Notes under the pieces: model-generated
Told to the model about the DNA's origin: nothing
Seen by the model: the letters and a program-made list of their open reading frames with translations, nothing else
Databases searched by the model: none
Made by a program: the position numbers and the translations under genes
Assembly: GCA_029880245.1 (NCBI GenBank)
Contig: JAOUOR010000005.1
Span: forward strand, 1 to 49,320
Reading direction: 5' to 3'
DNA: 49,320 nt
Source: Alphaproteobacteria bacterium
Lineage (GTDB): Bacteria; Pseudomonadota; Alphaproteobacteria; Micavibrionales; Micavibrionaceae
Shown here: positions 12,309-37,765 of the stretch, piece by piece
Numbering within the stretch: the stretch's first letter is position 1
Layout of the letters: every line of letters begins with the position of its first letter

Positions 12309-14053
12309 GATTATCCTTTCTTCATAATAAGGTTATTAGAATACGGGGTGATCAAAGCGCGTCACTCGGTGTTATGCGCGAGCGCCTTTTTATGTTGGGC
12401 GGCGTTTTTATCTTGTGCTTTCTCGTTATCTCTGTGCGGGTTATTGATCTAAGCTTAACACATGGTCTGAGCGTCACGGAGTCTGAAATATTTAGTTCGC
12501 ATGAAGGTTCCGATACCCAAAAAGGAGCCGAAATTCGGCGCGGTTATATTTATGATCGCAACGGAGAGTTATTGGCAACAAGTGTAAAAGTTCCTGCGTT
12601 GTTTGCTGATCCATCTCTTATTCTGGAGCCTGAAATAGTGGCGGCGCAGCTTGCGGAAATCTTTCCCGATATCAAGATTGATGAAATTGCCGATGCTATG
12701 CGTGGGACTAATAAGTATACGCTTTTGGTGAGACCTGTTACGCCAGAACAGCAAGCCAGAGTCCTGGAGCTTGGGCAGCTTGGTCTTGGATTTGAATATC
12801 AATATAATCGCGTTTATCCTAATGGCTCGCTTGTTTCCCATATTGTAGGTTATGCCGGAAAGGATAATACAGGGTTATCCGGTATTGAGCTTGGGCAAGA
12901 CGAGATATTGGCCAAAGGCGAGAATGTCTATTTATCTCTTGATCTCAGGTTGCAGCATATCTTGAGGCGTGAGCTTACCAAGGCAATGGATGAATTCAGG
13001 GCGGTTGGTGCGATTGGTGCCATTTTGGATATAAAAACCGGTGAAGTGCTCGCCGGTGTTTCCCTGCCTGATTTTGATCCGAATTATCTGGCGCGTTATG
13101 AAGCTGAAGGAGAGGCTCATAAGAAATTCAATCAACTGAATCTGGGGGTTTATGAGCTTGGGTCTATATTCAAAGTCTTCTCCATTGCGGCATTTTTGGA
13201 TTTAAAAAGCGGTGCTTTAGGGCAAAGGTTTAATGTGCGTAAACCGATCAAAATAGGGCGTTTCAGGATTAATGATTATCACCCGAAAAAGGCTGATCTG
13301 AGTATTCCGGAAATTTTTGTGCATTCCTCGAATATTGGTACGGCGCTTATGGCTGAGGAACTTGGAGCAGAAAAACTTAAAGGGTTTTACAGTGATTTGG
13401 GTCTTTTAACCCGAATGAAAACGGAAGTGGCAGGTTCGGGCTTGCCACAATTTCCTGAAAAATGGCCAAGGTCGACATTGCTGACAGTGTCTTATGGGCA
13501 TGGTTTGTCGACAACGCCATTGCAGGTGCTAAGCGCTTTTGCAACAGTGGTTAATGACGGAATAGTTGTGAAACCGAGTTTTCTGAAAAAAAGCAAAGAT
13601 AAAAGTGATCAGGAGGAAGTTCAGGTTTTATCGGAAGTAACATCGGCTAAAATGCGTAAGCTACTCCGGCTTAATGCTATTCACGGTACGGGAGAGAGCG
13701 CTGATGTATCGGGTTTTTATGTGGGAGGAAAGACAGGAACAGCGAATAAATATGGTAGAGATGCCAGGGTATCAAGTTTTGCAGGTGTCTTTCCGGCGCA
13801 TGATCCTCGTTATGCGATTATCATAGTTGTCGATGAGCCAAAAGGACATAAGGGTACATATGGCTATGCGACTGCTGGCTGGGTGGCTGCGCCGACATTT
13901 GCACGAGTTGTGAAATCAATGGCTGTGGTTTTAGGTTTGCAGCCGGATGGAAGTAAAGAAGCAGAAGAGTTTGCGCAAGATTTAGTGCGCTATATTCCGG
14001 TTGAAGATCAAAAGGTAAAAAAGAAGGAAAGGGCGCAATTTGTCTCATACTAA
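12305..14053 (+). CDS. ftsI: Septal peptidoglycan transpeptidase FtsI (PBP3)
   Basis: FtsI cross-links peptidoglycan at the division site, in complex with FtsW. The product has 582 residues: a transmembrane helix at about 29-47, the pedestal domain (GYIYDRNGELLATS near residue 82) and the transpeptidase domain. The catalytic serine is Ser287 in ELGSIFKVF (SxxK), the second motif is HSSN, and KTG starts at Lys476 (GGKTGTANK). All active-site motifs are intact. It starts within the ftsL stop codon and overlaps murE by 14 bases. Confidence 0.97.
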   Translation: MRLSFLHNKVIRIRGDQSASLGVMRERLFMLGGVFILCFLVISVRVIDLSLTHGLSVTESEIFSSHEGSDTQKGAEIRRGYIYDRNGELLATSVKVPALFADPSLILEPEIVAAQLAEIFPDIKIDEIADAMRGTNKYTLLVRPVTPEQQARVLELGQLGLGFEYQYNRVYPNGSLVSHIVGYAGKDNTGLSGIELGQDEILAKGENVYLSLDLRLQHILRRELTKAMDEFRAVGAIGAILDIKTGEVLAGVSLPDFDPNYLARYEAEGEAHKKFNQLNLGVYELGSIFKVFSIAAFLDLKSGALGQRFNVRKPIKIGRFRINDYHPKKADLSIPEIFVHSSNIGTALMAEELGAEKLKGFYSDLGLLTRMKTEVAGSGLPQFPEKWPRSTLLTVSYGHGLSTTPLQVLSAFATVVNDGIVVKPSFLKKSKDKSDQEEVQVLSEVTSAKMRKLLRLNAIHGTGESADVSGFYVGGKTGTANKYGRDARVSSFAGVFPAHDPRYAIIIVVDEPKGHKGTYGYATAGWVAAPTFARVVKSMAVVLGLQPDGSKEAEEFAQDLVRYIPVEDQKVKKKERAQFVSY

Positions 14054-15491
14054 GTCTTGCATGAGTATTGATGAGTTTGATGTATCCTGTCTCAAAGGAG
14101 TGGCGATTGATAGTCGTCAAGTGCAGGAAGGGTATCTTTTCGCAGCGCTTTCCGGTGAAAGACATGACGGGCGTGATTATATTGATCAGGCTATCACAAG
14201 CGGAGCTTCCGCTGTTTTGGTGGAAGAAGGGTTTCAACCTAAGAGTGACGGCAATGTTATTTATATAGCCGATCAAAATCCTAGGAAGGCGCTGAGCTAT
14301 ATTCTTTCCATCTATTACAAGGATCAACCCGAGCATAATGTTGCGGTGACGGGCACAAATGGAAAAAGTTCTGTTGTGCATTTTCTGCGACAAATCTGGC
14401 AATCTCTGGGACATAAAGCTGTGAGTATGGGGACGTTGGGGCTTTCTGGTGATACGAATGTTAAAATGGAAGGCTCTATAACAACGCCTGATCCGGTATC
14501 CTTACACAGAGTTTTGCAGGAGTTAAAGGGTGAGGGGGTGGATTATCTGGCGATGGAGGCTTCTAGCCACGGGCTGGATCAATATCGCCTTGATGGGGTT
14601 AATGTCAGTGTGGCGGCCTTTACCAGTTTTTCACAAGATCATCTGGATTATCATAAGAGTGAGCAGGACTATTTGGCGTCTAAAGCCCGATTGTTTTCAA
14701 AAGACATTATGCAAGAGGGCGTGGCTGTTTTGAATGCCGATATCCTTGAATATGATGAACTGGTGGAAATCAGTAAAGCATCAGGTCACCGTGTTTTGTC
14801 TTATGGTTTTGAAGGTGAAGAGTGCAAGATTTGTAAGGTCGAGCCGCTGATGAACGGGCAGGATGTCGAGCTTGAGGTTTTTGGTGAAAAATATAAAACG
14901 CATTTGCCTTTGATTGGCGAGTTTCAGGTCATGAATGTGTGTTGTGCTTTACTGAGTGCTTTGGCTTTGGAGGAGAGTGTAAGAGCAAAAGTCATGAAAG
15001 CTCTTCCAGAATTAAAAGCTGTTGCAGGTCGAATGGAGCCTGTGGCGCATAATGCTTATGTCGACTACGCCCATACGCCTGATGCTTTGGAAGTGGCGCT
15101 GAAAGCTTTGCGCCCTCATGTAAGAGGTAAGATTTTCTGCATATTTGGCTGTGGCGGTGATAGAGATCAAAGCAAACGTTCCTTAATGGGGAAAGCGGCT
15201 TATGCACATGCGGATGTAGTGATTATTACCGATGATAATCCAAGAAGCGAGGACCCTGAAACTATTAGGAACCAAATACGGTCGGGTATGCCTGAAGAAG
15301 CACAAAATATTCATTTAATAGGGGGGCGCCGCGCTGCGATTGACTATGCCGTGTCCAAAGCCGGAGAAGGTGACATTATTTTGCTGGCAGGCAAAGGCCA
15401 TGAACAGCAACAGATTTTTAAAGACCACATTGAAAACTTTAATGATGTGGAAGAGTTGAAAAAAGCTATTACTAGAGTAGGTACTTTCTGA
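14040..15491 (+). CDS. murE: UDP-MurNAc-dipeptide:meso-DAP ligase MurE
   Basis: MurE adds the third amino acid of the peptidoglycan stem peptide in the cytoplasm. The P-loop is VTGTNGKS (about residues 103-110), and the motif DNPR at 399-402 marks the meso-diaminopimelate-specific class. The C-terminal GKGHEQ motif is present. The start is uncertain: TTG at 14040 has a good ribosome site (AAGGAAAGGG, 14024-14033), whereas the in-frame ATG at 14061 has a poor one. Both retain the substrate-binding IDSR motif. The usual next gene, murF, is missing; a 152-residue protein follows. Confidence 0.96.
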   Translation: MSHTKSCMSIDEFDVSCLKGVAIDSRQVQEGYLFAALSGERHDGRDYIDQAITSGASAVLVEEGFQPKSDGNVIYIADQNPRKALSYILSIYYKDQPEHNVAVTGTNGKSSVVHFLRQIWQSLGHKAVSMGTLGLSGDTNVKMEGSITTPDPVSLHRVLQELKGEGVDYLAMEASSHGLDQYRLDGVNVSVAAFTSFSQDHLDYHKSEQDYLASKARLFSKDIMQEGVAVLNADILEYDELVEISKASGHRVLSYGFEGEECKICKVEPLMNGQDVELEVFGEKYKTHLPLIGEFQVMNVCCALLSALALEESVRAKVMKALPELKAVAGRMEPVAHNAYVDYAHTPDALEVALKALRPHVRGKIFCIFGCGGDRDQSKRSLMGKAAYAHADVVIITDDNPRSEDPETIRNQIRSGMPEEAQNIHLIGGRRAAIDYAVSKAGEGDIILLAGKGHEQQQIFKDHIENFNDVEELKKAITRVGTF

Positions 15492-15537
15492 GTTGTTGAG
15501 GTTAAAATGAATTCACTAAAGGAGTTAAAGAATTACA

Positions 15538-15996
15538 ATGATTAAGGATAACCGTTACTTCTGGTCACATGTCAAAATGCATAATGTAACAGTCAGTGTT
15601 AAGCCAAGAAAGAGCACGCAAGGTGTGGTTTTTCGCGTGGTCAATATGATCGACATAGGTGACGGTCGTCAGACTGTAGTTCTGGGGGCTTTGAATGGTG
15701 TTGAAAACAGGGTTGCAGAAGGAAGTGATTTTCCCGCTGTGCCATTTCGCATGGGCAGTTTGGATTTTGTCTATACGTCGCGGCGGGTCCCTTCTTTGTG
15801 CGATTATCGGCATTTAATTACTTCAACCTATCCCGAAGCCAGAATTGAAGAAATTGTTCCGGAGGTTCTTGCGCCGGGGGATCTGCTGGTTTTTAGACAA
15901 AAAAGGGGAGAAAATTCTATAAAGCTGGCAGGAGCTATGAGAGTAGTCTGTCAGAATAATCAATATGGAAGAAAGCAGGCTGGTTATGCTTTATAA
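15538..15996 (+). CDS. 152-residue protein in the murF position, possibly a lone MurF C-terminal domain
   Basis: I do not recognise this protein with certainty. Residues 45-150 can be lined up with domain 3 of Mur[18 protein letters not shown] resembles the GRKIAVLGDMLELGE-type strand and loop, DFVYTSRRV resembles the next strand, and [14 protein letters not shown] the closing GD-x-VLVKGSR strand. It has neither the P-loop nor the substrate domain, so it cannot be a ligase alone. It lies exactly where murF belongs, between murE and mraY, and its end overlaps the mraY start by 11 bases. It could be a MurF remnant kept for a regulatory or scaffold role, or an unrelated protein. The ribosome site (GGAG) is rather far, 13 bases before the ATG. 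Confidence 0.6.
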
Positions 15997-17071
15997 TCTT
16001 TTAGCGCCTTATGCAGATCAAATTTTGTTTTTTAACCTGTTCCGGTATATTACGTTTCGCACGGGTTGTGCAATTTTAACGGCACTAATCATTTGTTTTT
16101 TAATTGCCCCGCCTATGATCCGTTGGTTGAAAGTGAAGCAAAAGGAAGGTCAGCCTATCCGCGAATTTGGTCCGGAAGAACATTTCAAAAAGGCAGGTAC
16201 GCCGACGATGGGCGGATTGATGGTCTTGATTTCAGTAACAATATCGACGTTGCTTTGGGCGGATTTAAGCAATGTTTTTGTCTGGGTGGCTCTTATGGTG
16301 ATGGTTGGTTATGGCGCGATTGGTTTTGCCGATGATTACTTGAAATTGACCAAACGCAATACAAAAGGTTTATCCGGGAAGTTAAAGCTGGTGGCGCAAT
16401 TCGGGATTGGTCTGGCTGCAACACTTTTGATAATGGAGAACTTACCGCCTGAACTTAGTACACATGTTGCGATTCCGGTTTTCAAGGATGTGCTGATAAA
16501 TCTGGGTTGGTTCTTTTTGCCGTGGTCTCTGATTGTTATGGTAGGCGCGTCAAACGCCGTGAATCTGACAGATGGTCTTGATGGTCTGGCGATTGTGCCT
16601 GTGGCGATTGCAGCGGCATGCTTTGGTTTGATTTCATACTTGGTAGGGCGCGTTGACTATTCTGCCTATCTTCATATCCCTCATGTTCCGGGCACGGCAG
16701 AGCTTGCGATTTTATGTGGGGCACTGATTGGCGGAGCGATGGGCTTCCTGTGGTATAACGCGCCGCCAGCGGCTATTTTTATGGGAGATACAGGATCTCT
16801 TGCAATGGGCGGGTTTTTAGGTGCTGTGTCCGTGATGACCAAGCACGAGATTGTATTGGCAATAATTGGCGGGCTGTTTGTGCTTGAAACGGTTTCGGTT
16901 ATTGTGCAGGTAGCATCATTCAAGCTTACCGGAAAACGGGTTTTTGCTATGGCCCCGCTTCATCATCACTTTGAAAAAAAGGGTTGGTCTGAGCCGACAA
17001 TCGTAATACGGTTTTGGATTATTGCCGTTATTTTAGCTTTGGTTGGACTTGCCACTCTTAAATTGCGATAA
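15986..17071 (+). CDS. mraY: Phospho-MurNAc-pentapeptide transferase MraY
   Basis: MraY makes lipid I from UDP-MurNAc-pentapeptide and undecaprenyl phosphate at the inner membrane. The product of 361 residues is a ten-helix protein with KAGTPTMGG, the aspartate motif [35 protein letters not shown] and [12 protein letters not shown], all hallmark sequences. The ATG at 15986 ([12 protein letters not shown], then [12 protein letters not shown]) is chosen because it matches the family N-terminus; an upstream ATG at 15965 would add seven residues lying inside the previous gene. Confidence 0.97.
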
Positions 17072-23402: not shown

Positions 23403-24047
23403 TTACTCTACTCGATTATAATAAAATTCCGGGTTATCCTTTAAATATGCTTCAATTTGTTCACGGAACCTCTGATCCCTTTCCAGAAAGAAATCCGGCG
23501 TATCTACTTTGACCTCAGTTTCATCATAACTAATTTGTAGTCCTTTTTTGTAAAAATACAGAGTAGTACAACCACCGCCAACTTTACTGTTTCGTAGCTC
23601 ACGCCACTTCGTACATTCAAAAAATACAGGTTCATCATTCACAGTCGGAGCTTGCTCTAAAGGCAACATTATTCCTTGTGTGGTTCCAAAATCATAATGC
23701 ACAATCCCCGAAGGATATTTTTTCATGCTCCCTTTTTGTTGAGCCTCAATAATTTTTTCTTCCCATGTTTTATACGTTGTTTTTGGTATGTATGAATTGC
23801 TGGCAGTACCACGAAAATATAACTGCACACCTGATTTCAATGAAACTTGGTTTTGCCATTTTTCTACTTGCTCAGAGGTCATAGGTAGAACAACGTCTAT
23901 ATATGCAGGAATACCCAAAAGAAGTCTTATTGAGGTTATCCCACCACCTAGAAGAAGCCAATATAAAATAGACAAAACTATTATTAGAACTGTGGCCCGT
24001 TTCCAAGGTCTTCGCTTTTTAGTCACGCCTTTTTTACCTTCCTGCAT
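23403..24047 (-). CDS. Single-pass membrane protein of unknown function, AT-rich
   Basis: The 214-residue product has a basic N-terminus (KKRRPWKR), one membrane helix at about residues 18-40 and a soluble C-terminal domain of about 170 residues, probably outside the cytoplasm, with two cysteines. I do not recognise the family. It lies 12 bases after the MurF-like gene and may be the last gene of that transcript. Its codon use is more AT-rich than its neighbours', which suggests transfer. A GTG seven codons in (24026) has a better ribosome site (AGGAAGG) and is an alternative start. Confidence 0.65.
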   Translation of the reverse strand: MQEGKKGVTKKRRPWKRATVLIIVLSILYWLLLGGGITSIRLLLGIPAYIDVVLPMTSEQVEKWQNQVSLKSGVQLYFRGTASNSYIPKTTYKTWEEKIIEAQQKGSMKKYPSGIVHYDFGTTQGIMLPLEQAPTVNDEPVFFECTKWRELRNSKVGGGCTTLYFYKKGLQISYDETEVKVDTPDFFLERDQRFREQIEAYLKDNPEFYYNRVE

Positions 24048-24059
24048 TTATTTTTCTGA

Positions 24060-25670
24060 TTAAATCTTCGGGATGTCCTCGTAAATATCGGGGAGGTCGT
24101 TTTCCAGCAGGATCAGGTCGCCTTTTTTGCGGTTTTTGGTAAGCCAGCTTTGTGCTTCGAGGAAACTATTAAAGGTTTTAAGCGGCTTGGCCGGATTGGT
24201 TTTTTGGAAGCCTTCGATAAAGGTCGGGATGCGGTCTGGCTGGATGATGATGGCGATATCGCAGCAATCTGCAGCATAAGCGCCGAGCTTTTCATGTGTG
24301 TCATCATGGGCAGGTCCTAGCTCTACAATGCCGGGTGTGACAAGGATGGTGCGCTTGTAATCTTCTTTGAGTTTTTTGAGGAGATCGAGTGCCGATCTGA
24401 AACCTGTAGGGTTGGAATTATAGGCATCATCCAAAAGGGCGCTGCCGTCATCTTGCTTTTTAAGCTCCAGCCTGTGCGCGATTTGCGGCAGGCGCGTGAG
24501 AGCAGCCTTAATATCATCGGCTTCTATTCCCAGTGACATTGCCGTGGCAAAAGCCATCGCTATATTCTCGGCATGGTGATGTCCGTAAATCGGTGCGCGC
24601 AGTGCATGTTCCTTGCCTTGCCACATAACGCCGATAACAAGACCTTTGGAATTCTGGTCAACCAAGGTAATGGCCAGATCGTCCTTGGTGAGATGTCCAT
24701 CCGTATCCGGTCCTCCGCACACAATGAAGTTACGCGCATCTTTGTGGCGCATTTGCTGAGTGTGTTTAAAGCGCAAGGTTTTTTCACCGATAATCACCAT
24801 ACCGCCGCGTGAAAGAACGGATTCTGCCAGCTCGAATTTTGCATGGGCTACTGTATCGAGTGTTTTGAACCGCTCGTAATGTGCATGACCGATTGAGGTT
24901 ATAATGCCTGTATCAGGTGGGGTAAGCTCGCATAAGGCTTTGATCGAGCCGGGTCCGTAAGCGCCCATTTCTACGATGAAATATTTGTGATTGGGCTGGA
25001 GATGTTCGCGTATGATGCGGGTAATGCCCATAAGGGTGTTGACACTGCCCGGTGTCATAAGGGTCGGGGCGGTACTTCCAAGAATATGTCCAAGGATATG
25101 TTTAACCGATGTTTTCCCATATGAGCCTGTAATTCCTATAATATTAGGGCGCATCTGCTCCAGCTTTTCTTTTGCCTCGGCAGCGAATTTTTGCTGCACG
25201 GCTTTTTCATGCGGCTGAAGAAATTTATTGCCGGATATCAAAATCAAAGGGATAAGCTGTATTGGTAATATCCATATAGCTGGCGTTGAGATGAAGAACC
25301 CGATCGAGCCAAAGGCTGCGCAGATGACCAAAGACATGTTCAGTATACGTCTGGCACGGGGCGTTAAGATAAGATTTTTTTTACCGTCTTTGCGGGCATC
25401 TTTTTCTATAAAGATAATAATCGCGAAAATCAGGAATGTCAGAAAATGCGTTGCCAGAGGAGGAATTAGGCTCAGTGCGGCAGGAATGCTCAGGAGTAAG
25501 AGTAAGAAAGTTGCCCGTTTATCAAAAACTTTATTTTTTATTGTCCAGCGCCAAAACCGGCTATTATCGTAATCATCCTGCTGGAGCGCATGAAGGTAAT
25601 TCATCAGACGTTTGGCACAAAAAGCCAGATAGGCCAGATAAATAATAGTTAATGTTGCAATCTCGATCAT
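24060..25670 (-). CDS. Membrane-anchored MurF-like Mur ligase
   Basis: The protein of 536 residues has about five membrane helices in its first 150 residues (roughly 1-20, 52-70, 72-89, 109-129, 131-147), followed by Mur ligase domains 2 and 3. The P-loop is GITGSYGKTSVK (residues 179-190), and domain 3 carries LLDDAYNSNPTGFRSAL, the MurF signature. The usual MurF domain 1, which binds the UDP-MurNAc-tripeptide, is absent and replaced by the membrane part. Since murF is missing from the dcw cluster, this is the only candidate in the window for adding D-Ala-D-Ala, and ddl lies nearby. Alternatively it could amidate or extend a different, membrane-linked substrate. Confidence 0.85.
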   Translation of the reverse strand: MIEIATLTIIYLAYLAFCAKRLMNYLHALQQDDYDNSRFWRWTIKNKVFDKRATFLLLLLSIPAALSLIPPLATHFLTFLIFAIIIFIEKDARKDGKKNLILTPRARRILNMSLVICAAFGSIGFFISTPAIWILPIQLIPLILISGNKFLQPHEKAVQQKFAAEAKEKLEQMRPNIIGITGSYGKTSVKHILGHILGSTAPTLMTPGSVNTLMGITRIIREHLQPNHKYFIVEMGAYGPGSIKALCELTPPDTGIITSIGHAHYERFKTLDTVAHAKFELAESVLSRGGMVIIGEKTLRFKHTQQMRHKDARNFIVCGGPDTDGHLTKDDLAITLVDQNSKGLVIGVMWQGKEHALRAPIYGHHHAENIAMAFATAMSLGIEADDIKAALTRLPQIAHRLELKKQDDGSALLDDAYNSNPTGFRSALDLLKKLKEDYKRTILVTPGIVELGPAHDDTHEKLGAYAADCCDIAIIIQPDRIPTFIEGFQKTNPAKPLKTFNSFLEAQSWLTKNRKKGDLILLENDLPDIYEDIPKI

Positions 25671-25697
25671 GTGTTTTTATCTTTCGTGCCTTGCGAT

Positions 25698-26570
25698 CTA
25701 GGCTTGTTTATTATCACGCATATATTTGATAAAGCCATAGAGATTCTCTGCATCTATGCCATGTAGCATTAGTCGAAACCCTGCCTCGATAGTTGAAAGT
25801 GGCACCATTGGGTGCTTGTTATTCACAAGGCCCATAATCTCCCCCTGATTAAACATGGTTGCCGCATAGACTGCAATAGTTTCATCCAGTTGCAGGGAAT
25901 TACTGGCGCGCTCGAAATCCTCACGAGAGAGCATCAGGGCGAATAAGGGCGTATACAATTCTATTGCACTTTGTAAATCTAGAAAATTGTGCCATTTATT
26001 GGGCACTTCCTCAATCTTGAAATCATGAATGGCAGAAAAATCTATGTCCTTAATCCTGATGGGGGCAATACGTTTGTTTTTCTCTTTAAGGTATTTATTC
26101 AACTCAATTACAAAATTATAAATATTGAGATCATGTTGAACGAAGACGTTATCGCGCAAATCTTCTATTGTTTTAGGCTTGAGTGGGTGAGAGGGAAGCG
26201 TACCTTCAGCCAAGTTATCACCCATAAATTTCAGGACCTGTGATCCCATATTGAAATGTCGCAAGATCAGGTAATTGGCCTCTTTGCTCACGAAATTATG
26301 CATGCCCCAGCATATGGTGCTGTGTAAAGCTCTGGAGGATGTCAATTTCTCGGGTATAAACAAACGGATAAAGCGGAAAACCCCAATAAATAATCTGGCG
26401 AATGGTCTTATAATAGGGAGTAATACACGACGCGAAAAAGACGAGTTATTAATTAAAAGTGCTTCCTTTGCAGTTTGATTGACAAAGGTGCTTTGATCCA
26501 AAGCTAAAGCCATCCATGGGTCAGGATTATCCTTATCATGTTTACTTACATCAAAAGGTATTTCAGACAT
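25698..26570 (-). CDS. Unknown protein of the ketosynthase operon
   Basis: The 290-residue product has a hydrophobic, basic stretch at about residues 49-75 (RRVLLPIIRPFARLFIGVFRFIRLF region) that could be an amphipathic membrane-binding helix, and an otherwise helical soluble body. I do not recognise the family. The start at 26570 (MSEIPFDV) is chosen because GAGGA precedes it by eight bases; it overlaps the heme-oxygenase-like gene by eight bases. This tight coupling suggests that the two proteins act together, but no function can be read from the sequence. Confidence 0.75.
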   Translation of the reverse strand: MSEIPFDVSKHDKDNPDPWMALALDQSTFVNQTAKEALLINNSSFSRRVLLPIIRPFARLFIGVFRFIRLFIPEKLTSSRALHSTICWGMHNFVSKEANYLILRHFNMGSQVLKFMGDNLAEGTLPSHPLKPKTIEDLRDNVFVQHDLNIYNFVIELNKYLKEKNKRIAPIRIKDIDFSAIHDFKIEEVPNKWHNFLDLQSAIELYTPLFALMLSREDFERASNSLQLDETIAVYAATMFNQGEIMGLVNNKHPMVPLSTIEAGFRLMLHGIDAENLYGFIKYMRDNKQA

Positions 26571-27228
26571 TATCGATTTCCTCAAGTTGCAATAAATATA
26601 GGCGTGCAGTTATTTTGGCGGTTTTTATAATCTGTTCTCCCATGTTTTCGATTTCTAAAATACCGGATTTTAGTGCTTCGTCAAATTCTTCCATATGTTC
26701 GTCATCATGCTCGGCATGGTAAATGTAAAAACTGACCTGATCTTCCGTAAGATCAAGCTGTTCCATAATGGCACGACCCCAGCCTCCGGCTTTGTTTTGG
26801 CCCAGCCCTTCGATGATAAACATCGATCCCAGCATATCAAAAGGATTGGGCTGTGAGGCTCTATGAAACATAAAAGCATTCAAGGCTTCAGAACCAATAT
26901 TTTTTGAAGCGTTCTGTATATCTTCATGCGTACCGCCAACAGAAACATAGTTTTTCTCCAACATTTTAAAGTCTTTATGTTCTGTGATACAATGCTGCAT
27001 GAATTTGGAGCGCATTTCGGAATAATGCTCGTCTATGCTGGAGGCTGCTCGCGCAATCCAGCGTCCGCCTTCCACGACTTGCTGGCGATGATTAATTAGC
27101 AGCGTCTTGTAATCTTCAAGTCTGAACTTACCGCGATTAAGCTTGTCGATGATAGGTACCTGATCGAGTTTTGTCTCAAAATCTGTCCAGACCTTGATTA
27201 GCCCTCGCATTACTTCTTCACTTTTCAT
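26563..27228 (-). CDS. Heme-oxygenase-like (iron-containing redox enzyme) protein
   Basis: A 221-residue all-helical protein with the spacing expected of the heme-oxygenase-like di-iron oxidase/oxygenase superfamily (relatives include TenA, PqqC and UndA). Candidate metal ligands are Glu83/His84 (ITEHKDF), Glu140 (MFIIEGLG) and the cluster His171-His174-Asp175-His178 (YHAEHDDEH). Known members oxidise or cleave small carboxylic acids and amino acids. Here the gene is locked between a ketosynthase III (one base apart) and the unknown gene (8-base overlap), so an acyl or acyl-derived substrate is a fair inference. The exact reaction is not known, and a non-iron TenA-like role cannot be excluded. 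Confidence 0.78.
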   Translation of the reverse strand: MKSEEVMRGLIKVWTDFETKLDQVPIIDKLNRGKFRLEDYKTLLINHRQQVVEGGRWIARAASSIDEHYSEMRSKFMQHCITEHKDFKMLEKNYVSVGGTHEDIQNASKNIGSEALNAFMFHRASQPNPFDMLGSMFIIEGLGQNKAGGWGRAIMEQLDLTEDQVSFYIYHAEHDDEHMEEFDEALKSGILEIENMGEQIIKTAKITARLYLLQLEEIDNV

Positions 27229-28341
27229 TTAGATAACCTCCAACATCATTAAACCATTTACACAGCGCCCACTTTCAGGAACATGACATAATATGTTCTG
27301 TCCGGACTTTAGTGTACCGCTATAAAAAAGTTCCTCAAGCATTATAAAAATTGAGGCTGTGCCCGTATTGCCTTTTGAGTATAAATTGCTGAACCATTTA
27401 TTTTCATCAATTAGTGCGCCTGCCTTGTCCAGCAGAGTGACTGCTTCTTCCCGCAGAGAATGAGAAGAATAATGGCTGCATAGATGATCAATGTTATCAG
27501 TAACGATTTTCCCCTGATCAATGAGATCAAGATAATGAAATACCCAAATGGCAATCATTTTATTCAGGACTTTGAAGTTCTGTTTTAAGAAAAGCGCGCC
27601 ATTTTGAACGGCTTCAATCGGATTTCCAAAATTCCCCCAATACATGTTATCGGTTTCTCCTGCGCTCATACATGTGTCGAAGCGATCGGCATAGGAGCGT
27701 ATATCAATCCATTTTATTTTAAGGGAAAGCTGTCGCTCATTGGGTTTTGCTTCTAAAAGTGCTGCACCTGCACCATCTGATAAAGTAAATCTCAAAAAAT
27801 CCGCTTCGAAGGGGAGAGACTTTTGTCCCGAGGCTTTGAGGTAAGGTTCATAAAAGCCGGGGCGGAAATAACGGCTAGCAAACTCACTTCCAGTGACGGC
27901 AGCACATTCATGTTCTCCGCTTCCAAGCTGTAGCCATGCTGATTTTAGTGCCATGATTGAGCTTGCACACACACTTTGAAAATTTGCAATTTCAAGAGGT
28001 GGAATCTTTAGAGCACCATGAATATTCGATGCATGGCCAGGTACAAGAACATCTCCTAAGGTTGAAGATGCTGCGAGATAGCGTATATTTTGGAGACTAA
28101 CTTCCGAGTTTTTTAGTGCGTTTGTAACGGCGTGTGCAGCCATCTGTGCTGAGGAATATTGTGGTGCTCCTTTATCATCAAGAGCGTAATGGCGGGTTTT
28201 GATTTTATTTTGTCTTAGGACAATGGCTTTATTTCGGGATTTTTGACCATTAATTTTGCCAATATAGCTTTCAATGTCCTTATTCGGAACAGGTTTGTTT
28301 GGAAGAAACGCCCCGAGGCCATTAATATAAACATCTCGCAT
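27229..28341 (-). CDS. Ketosynthase III-type condensing enzyme
   Basis: A 370-residue thiolase-fold protein of the FabH/OleA/DarB group. The catalytic triad is intact: Cys125 (FQSVCASSIMALKSA), His290 (DHLCSHYSSH) and Asn325 (SKGNTGTAS). Such enzymes join an acyl-CoA or acyl-ACP to a second acyl or malonyl unit. It is clearly diverged from housekeeping FabH, which is shorter and usually sits beside plsX. With the adjoining hydrolase and heme-oxygenase-like genes it suggests a small fatty-acid-derived product. The stop codon abuts the next start, and the upstream hydrolase ends 15 bases before its ATG. Confidence 0.88.
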   Translation of the reverse strand: MRDVYINGLGAFLPNKPVPNKDIESYIGKINGQKSRNKAIVLRQNKIKTRHYALDDKGAPQYSSAQMAAHAVTNALKNSEVSLQNIRYLAASSTLGDVLVPGHASNIHGALKIPPLEIANFQSVCASSIMALKSAWLQLGSGEHECAAVTGSEFASRYFRPGFYEPYLKASGQKSLPFEADFLRFTLSDGAGAALLEAKPNERQLSLKIKWIDIRSYADRFDTCMSAGETDNMYWGNFGNPIEAVQNGALFLKQNFKVLNKMIAIWVFHYLDLIDQGKIVTDNIDHLCSHYSSHSLREEAVTLLDKAGALIDENKWFSNLYSKGNTGTASIFIMLEELFYSGTLKSGQNILCHVPESGRCVNGLMMLEVI

Positions 28342-28356
28342 AATATGGCCCTGTAT

Positions 28357-29121
28357 TCACTCTTTCACGGTATCGGCAATAATCTTAATGACTTGATGGC
28401 GTCCTTCGGACAGGACGCTATAGTGATCTTGCCCGTCCAGTAAAAACAATTTGCTGTCTTCGATCAAGCGGGAATATCTTTCGCCGAATTCAGGCGGGGT
28501 TTCTGTGTCATTTGTACCATAAATTAAAGTGGTCGGGCATATTACGTTTTGTGCAAGCTTGCTAAGGTCTTCATTCACAGTGCGTACAAAGACTTTGCGG
28601 ATTGGGCCTGCGTTTTTGTAATCGGTGCTGCCAAATCTGGCCATGAGTTTTTCTTTGAAAGCACCTTCGGGTACGAATTTTTTTAGAAATTTAAACAGCT
28701 TGATACGGCAATAGAAATAGATTTCCTTGTGTAAGGGGCGTTTGCGTTTTAAACCAGCGCCAGAAATTAGAATGAGTTTTTGTATTTTATCTGGATATTT
28801 GGTGGCAATGCGAATTCCAACGCGGCAACCAAAAGAATGTCCGATCCAGATAACGGGGGGGAAGTTCATGCTCTCTAGCCATTTAGCTACAAAATCAGCG
28901 TAACTTTGCACGTCCCAATCTTCGGGAGGCTGTGAAGATTCACCAAAACCAGGAAAGTCCAGCATGTAGTGATTGCCTAGAGATTTCAGGCTTTCCATGA
29001 TTTGCAGAAAGGCTTTGTGGTCCTGTCCCCATCCATGGGCCCAGATGATTACCGGCTCTTCTTTTTGAAGCTTATGGTTTTTGTAAGCCAGCTTTATATT
29101 GCCTGAAGTATAAAATTCCAT
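28357..29121 (-). CDS. Alpha/beta hydrolase, first gene of the ketosynthase operon
   Basis: The 254-residue alpha/beta hydrolase has the oxyanion segment AHGWGQDHKAF (residues 28-38), the nucleophile elbow GHSFG with Ser96, Asp205 in YGTNDTETP and His233 in GQDHYS, a full catalytic triad. There is no signal peptide. It could release or cleave the condensation product made by the ketosynthase, as the hydrolase OleB does in olefin pathways, but the substrate is unknown. The start lies 93 bases from the divergent ddl gene, so this intergenic region holds the promoter of the operon. Confidence 0.85.
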   Translation of the reverse strand: MEFYTSGNIKLAYKNHKLQKEEPVIIWAHGWGQDHKAFLQIMESLKSLGNHYMLDFPGFGESSQPPEDWDVQSYADFVAKWLESMNFPPVIWIGHSFGCRVGIRIATKYPDKIQKLILISGAGLKRKRPLHKEIYFYCRIKLFKFLKKFVPEGAFKEKLMARFGSTDYKNAGPIRKVFVRTVNEDLSKLAQNVICPTTLIYGTNDTETPPEFGERYSRLIEDSKLFLLDGQDHYSVLSEGRHQVIKIIADTVKE

Positions 29122-35819: not shown

Positions 35820-36743
35820 CTAACTTTGTGAGGGATAGGGCGAATTATCTTCTGGTTCGTCTTGTAAGTGCTTTGTTGCAAGAATTGTATGTTTGGCAAC
35901 ATAAAACTCGTCATCGAACATCGTGTTTTCGTCAAAGAGTGCAGATTCGATTTGCTCTTCAGTCAGACCTATTGCGCCTCTTAGATTGGCGCCTCTCAGA
36001 TCGGCTCCGGTCAAATCGGCCTTGGTCAGGGTAGCATCGGTCAGGATGGCGTCTCTCAGATTGGCACCCCTAAGATCGGCGCCGTACAGATTGGCACCGT
36101 ATAGATTGGCGCCTTCCAGATTGGCCCATCTCAGATAGGCATAAGTGAGTATAGCGTCATCCAGGTGGGCACCCTGTAGCTTTGCACTTTTTAGGTTAGC
36201 CGAGACTAAGTGAGCAATGGTTAGTATGGCTCCTCTTAGATCGGCATCACTCAGGATAGCGTTTTCCAGATTGGCATGAGTCAGGACGGCCCCTCTTAGA
36301 TCGGCATTGCTTAGGTCGGCCTTGTGCAGGATGGCATGGGTCAGTATGGCGCCTTCTAGATCTGCGTCTTTCAGTGTAGCCTCCATTAGATCAGCGTTGG
36401 CCAGGATGATATCTCTCATATCCGAACCGGCTAAGTTAATGTAGCGCAGATGGGCAAAAGACAGGTTTATCTTCTTTTCGTCCTGTTCTTTCTTGAGGAT
36501 CTCTTTTCTTAGTGTCTCAAGGATAAAGATTCCATGGTTGTAGCTATCGCGTTCTCTTTTATTGAGGCGAAAGATGCCGTTATCTTCATGGTTGTCGCGA
36601 AGCATGCATAGGGGTTCATGTCTATACTTATAATGCTTAAGAATCTCTTTGTGTTTGATGTAGCGCTGGCGGATATCTTCATCTTTATTTGTGAAGGCGT
36701 TTCGCAAATCGTTAAATGCATGTTGCAGGTAATGGGCGAGCAT
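35820..36743 (-). CDS. Pentapeptide-repeat protein 1
   Basis: The 307-residue product has a charged helical N-terminal region (about residues 1-95, containing NGIFRL) and then about 30 tandem pentapeptides of the A(D/N)Lxx type over residues 100-265 (for example ADLRGANLRDAILTDATL). These fold into a right-handed quadrilateral beta helix. Some family members mimic DNA and protect gyrase, others are structural; the N-terminal region does not tell which. It is a close paralogue of the next gene (same layout, same NGIF(R/T) region). There is no signal peptide. In the plus direction the repeats produce long meaningless frames. Confidence 0.9.
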   Translation of the reverse strand: MLAHYLQHAFNDLRNAFTNKDEDIRQRYIKHKEILKHYKYRHEPLCMLRDNHEDNGIFRLNKRERDSYNHGIFILETLRKEILKKEQDEKKINLSFAHLRYINLAGSDMRDIILANADLMEATLKDADLEGAILTHAILHKADLSNADLRGAVLTHANLENAILSDADLRGAILTIAHLVSANLKSAKLQGAHLDDAILTYAYLRWANLEGANLYGANLYGADLRGANLRDAILTDATLTKADLTGADLRGANLRGAIGLTEEQIESALFDENTMFDDEFYVAKHTILATKHLQDEPEDNSPYPSQS

Positions 36744-36838
36744 GGCGTTGGGAATCTACCTTTTTATGATTTTTTGTTATGTACCTATGAGTATAAGATT
36801 TTACCATATTATGTCAATAAAAATACTGGTTCGTATCA

Positions 36839-37765
36839 TCAGGAAATTACAGGAGTATCTGGCTGCGAGAAACTTTCCTTGTTTACAGGGTTTGAACGTT
36901 GTGCTTTAAGGATTTCCGCTTTGAGGTTGTTGAAACCCGAGCCTAACATTGTTGTTTCATCGATATAGGCAGATATTATCTGTTGTGAGGTCAGATTTCT
37001 TGTTCCTCTCAGATTGGCTCCTCTTAGATCGGCACCTCTCAGATCGGTTTTGGTCAGAAAGGCGCCTTCCAGATTGGCGCCTTCCAGATTGGCACCTTCC
37101 AGATTGGCACCGTCCAGATGGGCCCGTTCCAGATGGGCCTTTTTTAGATTAGCGTAGGTCAGAGTTGCTTTGAACAAAAGAGTTTTTACCAGATTGGCTT
37201 TGGTCAGCGTTGCCCCTGTCAGATCGGCTCCTTCCATATTGGCTCCAAACAGATCAGCCCTAGTCAGTATGGCTTGGGTCAGATCGGCTTCGCTCAGATC
37301 GGTTCCTGCCAGATCGGCTTTGACCAGTCTGGCCTCGACAAGATCTGCCCCGTTCAGATTGGCTCCACTCATATAGGCTCTGGTCAGATTAGCGCTTGTC
37401 AGTGTGGCATTGCCTAGATCGGCTTCAGTCAGGATGGCCTTGATCAGATCAACTCCGGTTAGGTCGGCATTATTTAAACGTGCGTAGGGAAGGTTTATTT
37501 TTCCCTGCGGAATTTTTTCTTTTATTTTATTAAGTATATAGGTTCCATGTTCATATTCGTCTTTTTTAAGGCGGAAAATGCCATTATCTTCATCAGCGTT
37601 GCGATGCTCGCATAGCTTTTTGTCTAATATTATGTGATGGTTATATTTATTGTCATCTTTGAGCTGTTGGAGAATCTCTTGATGTTTGAGATAACGCTCA
37701 ACGTGGTCATCATCGGAAATAGAATTTGTGTTTTTAAAAACAATAGATGCTAGTCTTTTAAGCAT
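36839..37765 (-). CDS. Pentapeptide-repeat protein 2
   Basis: The 308-residue paralogue of the protein at 35820-36743 is built the same way: a charged N-terminal region of about 90 residues (RYLKHQEILQQL, DEDNGIFRLKKDEYEHGTYIL) followed by about 30 pentapeptides (for example ANLEGANLEGANLEGAFL) and a C-terminal tail ending TPVIS. It lies upstream of its partner on the same strand, and the start codons are exactly 1,022 bases apart. The cellular role is not known. The best guess is an adaptor or protective protein. Confidence 0.9.
   Translation of the reverse strand: MLKRLASIVFKNTNSISDDDHVERYLKHQEILQQLKDDNKYNHHIILDKKLCEHRNADEDNGIFRLKKDEYEHGTYILNKIKEKIPQGKINLPYARLNNADLTGVDLIKAILTEADLGNATLTSANLTRAYMSGANLNGADLVEARLVKADLAGTDLSEADLTQAILTRADLFGANMEGADLTGATLTKANLVKTLLFKATLTYANLKKAHLERAHLDGANLEGANLEGANLEGAFLTKTDLRGADLRGANLRGTRNLTSQQIISAYIDETTMLGSGFNNLKAEILKAQRSNPVNKESFSQPDTPVIS

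Follow-up and report, generated by a model that had tools for sequence, protein, structure and literature searches.

A ketosynthase, heme-oxygenase-like oxidase and DUF6999 gene cassette seated between two putative cell-wall genes of an alphaproteobacterium

Four genes that follow one another on the reverse strand of contig JAOUOR010000005.1 (Alphaproteobacteria bacterium, assembly GCA_029880245.1, Micavibrionaceae) raise the question of which members of a tightly spaced run belong to one pathway, and what that pathway makes. They occupy positions 25698-29121 of the 49,320-nucleotide stretch of DNA analyzed here, referred to as the window, and encode an alpha/beta hydrolase, a ketosynthase III (KS3), a heme-oxygenase-like protein (HO) and a protein that an earlier note, made from the sequence alone, had listed as unknown. 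That note took the four genes for an operon. The coordinates confirm its four nearly gap-free open reading frames, with 15 bases between the hydrolase and KS3, 0 bases between KS3 and HO, and an 8-base overlap between HO and the fourth gene, but the note overlooked that the same-strand run extends further, reaching a MurF-like ligase after 27 bases and a small membrane protein after 12 more.

The fourth protein is a clear member of DUF6999 (PF22523; 363.5 bits against a cut-off of 27), a family without an assigned function, and its gene served as the marker for 33 loci: this window, 12 loci from a named genome collection, 10 from samples of relatives, the class and the phylum, 4 from the order of genome G475, 1 on a Pseudoalteromonas chromid and 5 from the wider class, the sampling covering the Pseudomonadota to the exclusion of other phyla. 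The complete set of KS3, HO and DUF6999, in the same order, occurs at 31 of the 33 loci, in Alpha- and Gammaproteobacteria alike; this count includes L012, where the ketosynthase is truncated by the contig end. The two exceptions are L117, a decayed copy in which each of the three genes survives as a remnant, and L114 (7889-9912), a lone DUF6999 beside an IS3-like transposase in a genome without a ketosynthase of the StlD/DarB family, where the insertion element has apparently removed the first part of the cassette. When 249 phylum genomes were searched for the StlD/DarB family, the scores were bimodal, with five genomes at 561-601 bits and five at 302-369, the latter being exactly the five genomes of that sample that carry DUF6999. 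These observations show the unity and fixed order of the cassette, and KS3-HO-DUF6999 is almost certainly a functional unit. Co-occurrence beyond close relatives, which the earlier note had proposed as a test of its operon, thus holds for these three genes and fails for the hydrolase, which does not accompany the cassette in the other genomes examined. Occurrence of the cassette is patchy (approximately 2% of sampled genomes), as suits an accessory function, and a plasmid search returned only one relative, that on the Pseudoalteromonas chromid.

The hydrolase (254 amino acids; 28357-29121, reverse strand; Abhydrolase_1, 9e-20) lies outside the cassette and has a different history. When the neighborhoods of MurF-like genes were retrieved from 14 relatives, the hydrolase was found to adjoin the MurF-like gene in 13 of them, on the opposite strand and inside the cell-wall (dcw) cluster, where the pair is flanked by ddl and, at its other end, by murB or murC; at the fourteenth locus, L061, only ddl adjoins the pair. 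None of KS3, HO and DUF6999 occurs at the hydrolase-ligase dcw loci of those 13 relatives. In the closest relative (Micavibrio sp. UBA1672, genome G006, locus L048; 84-86% identity), the ligase and a hydrolase 85% identical to that of the window overlap by 4 bases, and the three cassette genes are found on a separate contig. Comparison of the two loci places the cassette exactly at the former hydrolase/ligase junction. L048 reads ...AAAAGATGGAAACACATGACCG at the matching site, with no cassette, whereas in the window the left junction between hydrolase stop and ketosynthase start (28342-28360, reverse strand) reads hydrolase...AAAGAGTGAATACAGGGCCATATT-ATG(KS3), and the right junction between DUF6999 stop and ligase start (25671-25700, reverse strand) reads DUF6999-TAG...AAAGATAAAAACACATGATCG(ligase), with AAACACATGA common to the window and L048. 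Each edge carries the short motif AAAGA, perhaps as a footprint of the insertion, perhaps by chance. Because relatives keep the hydrolase-ligase pair intact and G006 has its cassette on another contig, the sequence comparison indicates that the presumed four-gene operon is three genes inserted into a two-gene cell-wall unit. Since the other cassettes lie at unrelated loci in the genomes examined, the dcw position is most simply a derived state and its location there incidental, which removes the basis on which an envelope role had been suggested.

The ketosynthase (370 amino acids; 27229-28341, reverse strand) matches Pfam ACP_syn_III_C at 2e-7 and an StlD/DarB profile at 2e-110, and its nearest solved structure is StlD (5gk0; 2.7e-73, 250 bits), the next best chain being FabH at 40 bits. 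On an unrooted maximum-likelihood tree, 26 cassette ketosynthases are split from five classic DarB sequences with 100/100 support; the genome's own FabH-like protein formed a very long branch and was unusable as a root, so that the clade assignment rests on the unrooted split. On this basis KS3 is placed as a sister clade of DarB/StlD, and the catalytic residues Cys125, His290 and Asn325 are invariant across all 31 sequences. DarB itself joins a beta-ketoacyl and a 2-enoyl thioester into 4-carboxy-2,5-dialkylcyclohexane-1,3-diones (PMC5515871), and in an Azoarcus cluster the neighbor of darB is annotated as a dialkylresorcinol aromatase (PMC3949708). At the classic loci of five phylum genomes (L094-L098), a flavodoxin-like protein in the DarA position and DarG accompany DarB, and the single classic locus scanned for a DarH-type acyltransferase has one. 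DarA-like proteins and DarG were found in all five classic genomes and in none of 10 cassette genomes.

The second cassette protein, HO (221 amino acids; 26563-27228, reverse strand), belongs to Haem_oxygenas_2 (PF14518; 7e-10, 39.4 bits against a threshold of 28.9). Its AlphaFold model (pLDDT 92.6) has 3dde, CADD, TenA, PqqC and UndA (4wwj) as structural neighbors, with TM-scores of 0.83-0.84 to 3dde and CADD, and shows, as a prediction, a diiron-oxidase-like fold. Heme-oxygenase-like diiron oxidases (HDOs) canonically bind metal through three histidines and three carboxylates, in MboA Glu86, His89, Glu143, His172, Asp176 and His181, and most characterized members act on amino-acid substrates (PMC13185094). 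Sequence alignment to 3dde and comparison with the MboA ligands yielded E83, D86, E140, H171, D175 and H178 as candidate ligands, invariant in 31 of 31 proteins down to 29% identity. HO thus shares the fold and five of the six ligand positions with UndA, CADD, SznF and MboA, but differs from them in its linkage to a ketosynthase and in carrying E-xx-D for E-xx-H, the histidine of the second helix being replaced by aspartate (D86) in all 31. H79, one turn earlier, is also invariant and could be an alternative metal ligand.

DUF6999 (25698-26570, reverse strand; 290 amino acids from an ATG at 26570, with an alternative upstream TTG start at 26585) matches its family at 7e-109 and is predicted with moderate confidence to be all-alpha (pLDDT 81). 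A sequence search with it found no PDB match, and no homology to HO was found (hhalign probability 0.2%). Fifteen core positions were checked in 32 aligned copies. No copy departs from R47, R104, H105, N119, H146, D147, D198, N224, D229, H270 or E275; substitutions at N251, R266 and G271 are confined to the diverged L116 copy, and those at H253 to L115 and L116. This invariant polar core looks more like an active site than a scaffold, and DUF6999 would be an obligatory third component of the cassette, probably an enzyme in view of its invariant histidine, aspartate and glutamate residues.

The association of ketosynthase and oxidase is closest at eight loci (L067, L068, L069, L080-L083 and L113), where the two form one polypeptide of 626-655 amino acids. 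A fatty-acid desaturase gene precedes seven of the eight fusion genes, and six of these seven have a fatty-acid hydroxylase gene before them as well. Among unfused cassettes, those of L014, L015 and L018 are followed by a P450, and that of L013 has a desaturase before it. At two loci, L079 (6621-7178, Pseudoalteromonas) and L115 (2623-3189, a relative), the cassette is preceded by a conserved protein of 185-188 amino acids without a Pfam match, 67% identical between the two, which is possibly a fourth member of the cassette there.

Taken together, these data are best accounted for by a three-gene biosynthetic cassette lying between two cell-wall genes, in which a fatty-acid-derived product of KS3 is oxidized by HO in the place of DarA, a reading to which we assign a probability of about one half. 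KS3 would condense two fatty-acid-derived acyl thioesters drawn from primary metabolism into, by analogy with DarB, a compound of the 2,5-dialkylcyclohexane-1,3-dione type or a related beta-keto compound. HO would take this product directly, as the existence of fusions between the two proteins suggests, and oxidize it with O2 by aromatization, hydroxylation or decarboxylation, filling the role of the flavodoxin-like aromatase DarA of dialkylresorcinol pathways. That the product is fatty-acid-derived, as the earlier note had considered possible, and oxidized is probable; a dialkylresorcinol-like ring, suggested by analogy, is somewhat less likely than not.

Several observations weigh against this reading. 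KS3 scores below curated NCBIfam cut-offs, with 369 bits for NF005293 (cut-off 450) and 319 for NF053539 (DarB; cut-off 550), as does the fused relative L081 (330 and 263 bits), so that its reaction may differ from that of DarB. The canonical HDO histidine is an aspartate in HO, and its chemistry or metal occupancy could therefore differ as well. The search for DarA in cassette genomes used a single DarA-type query, the DUF6999 model found no fold match in the PDB (best E 0.38), and most alphaproteobacterial cassettes have no pathway neighbors that would narrow down the substrate.

Among the alternatives, a role in modifying membrane fatty acids, with HO and DUF6999 acting on acyl intermediates that KS3 diverts from membrane lipid synthesis, draws on the desaturase and fatty-acid hydroxylase neighbors and on the many solitary cassettes, whose substrates must come from primary metabolism. 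We regard it as unlikely, since the patchy spread is unlike that of a housekeeping lipid function and KS3 is kin to ketosynthases of secondary metabolism. A head-to-head lipid or hydrocarbon route, in which OleA-like joining of two acyl chains would be followed by UndA-like decarboxylation of the beta-keto acid to a ketone or alkene, is likewise improbable. The fold match of HO to UndA, the same desaturase and hydroxylase genes nearby, and the compatibility of a ketosynthase III with two-substrate acyl condensation speak for it. The earlier note had drawn a parallel to OleA/OleB hydrocarbon synthesis, with which the locus shares a ketosynthase III and an alpha/beta hydrolase in one gene run. 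This parallel breaks down at both ends: KS3 is much nearer to StlD than to any other solved ketosynthase III chain, and the presumed OleB-like hydrolase is part of another module. An OleA-type thiolase with a linked OleB, as in OleABCD systems, was not found at the locus, no genome-wide search having been made for OleC and OleD. Finally, a single pathway of all four genes, with the hydrolase recruited at insertion for thioesterase-like release of the KS3/HO product, would suit the shared strand, the 15-base gap and the intact hydrolase family match, but is very improbable given a closest relative whose hydrolase overlaps the ligase with the cassette on another contig, and given the lack of the hydrolase at other cassettes.

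The cassette genes have been maintained under selection. Identity to the closest relative is 81% for KS3, 91% for HO and 84% for DUF6999, with a ratio of non-synonymous to synonymous substitution rates (dN/dS) of 0.06 for KS3, indicating purifying selection, and low dN for HO (0.05) and DUF6999 (0.11), dS being saturated for both. The G+C content of the cassette (0.40-0.42) is slightly below that of the window (0.45), which is not decisive for transfer because adjacent genes vary equally; relocation inside the lineage fits as well, since KS3 groups with its same-genus relative with 100/100 support. Scans of the region found neither an excess of promoters (15, against 14.2 in shuffled sequences) nor of terminators (10, against 6.9 with a standard deviation of 3.2, inside the spread).

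The hydrolase, for its part, is inferred to share a role in cell-wall metabolism with the MurF-like ligase. The ligase (24060-25670, reverse strand) lacks the usual first Mur domain, having hydrophobic segments at its N terminus instead, and scores 216 bits against TIGR01143, below the cut-off of 289; a family search of its genome at E<=1e-30 returned no other match of this kind. Between murE (14040-15491) and mraY, no murF is present (positions 14040-17071 of the window), the only reading frame there encoding 152 amino acids without family matches. The MurF-like protein may be the MurF of this organism, relocated, membrane-tethered and paired with a conserved alpha/beta hydrolase. The small membrane-anchored protein downstream (23403-24047, reverse strand) was not recognized at the hydrolase-ligase loci of relatives. 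Elsewhere in the window, two neighboring pentapeptide-repeat proteins are encoded downstream of lpxC (35820-37765, reverse strand).

With dialkylresorcinol, flexirubin and arcuflavin pathways of the DarA-DarB type, and with Photorhabdus StlD, the cassette shares the ketosynthase superfamily, the invariant Cys/His/Asn residues and the pairing of a ketosynthase with an oxidizing partner. It differs from them in a ketosynthase that forms its own clade and scores under the curated cut-offs, in the absence of DarA and DarG from the 10 genomes tested, and in a partner that is a heme-oxygenase-like protein, fused to the ketosynthase in some lineages and joined by DUF6999. The enzymes are of known kinds, and it is their combination and the ligand variant that we have apparently not found described, in agreement with the earlier note's impression that the gene set matches no known pathway as a whole. 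A literature search found no paper naming DUF6999 and none joining the annotation names of the ketosynthase III and the iron enzyme, most subscription journals lying outside its coverage, so that an earlier description is possible. That these cassettes constitute an undescribed class of lipid-metabolite pathway across the Proteobacteria, in which the ketosynthase product passes straight to an HO diiron oxidase with a predicted 2-His/4-carboxylate site resembling the ferritin type and DUF6999 represents a new family of enzymes, is possible but somewhat doubtful.

The locus also carries a caution: four genes closely packed within a cell-wall cluster looked like one pathway, and comparative genomics divided them between two modules. 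The natural fusions make the order of the ketosynthase and oxidase steps testable within one protein, and Caulobacter vibrioides, a species widely used in the laboratory, has matches to DUF6999 and to the ketosynthase family, so that the product could be accessible by ordinary genetics. For the families concerned, the cassette places the unannotated DUF6999 in a defined biochemical setting and joins a ketosynthase clade to what would be an O2-dependent metal oxidase, where dialkylresorcinol pathways use a flavodoxin-like aromatase.

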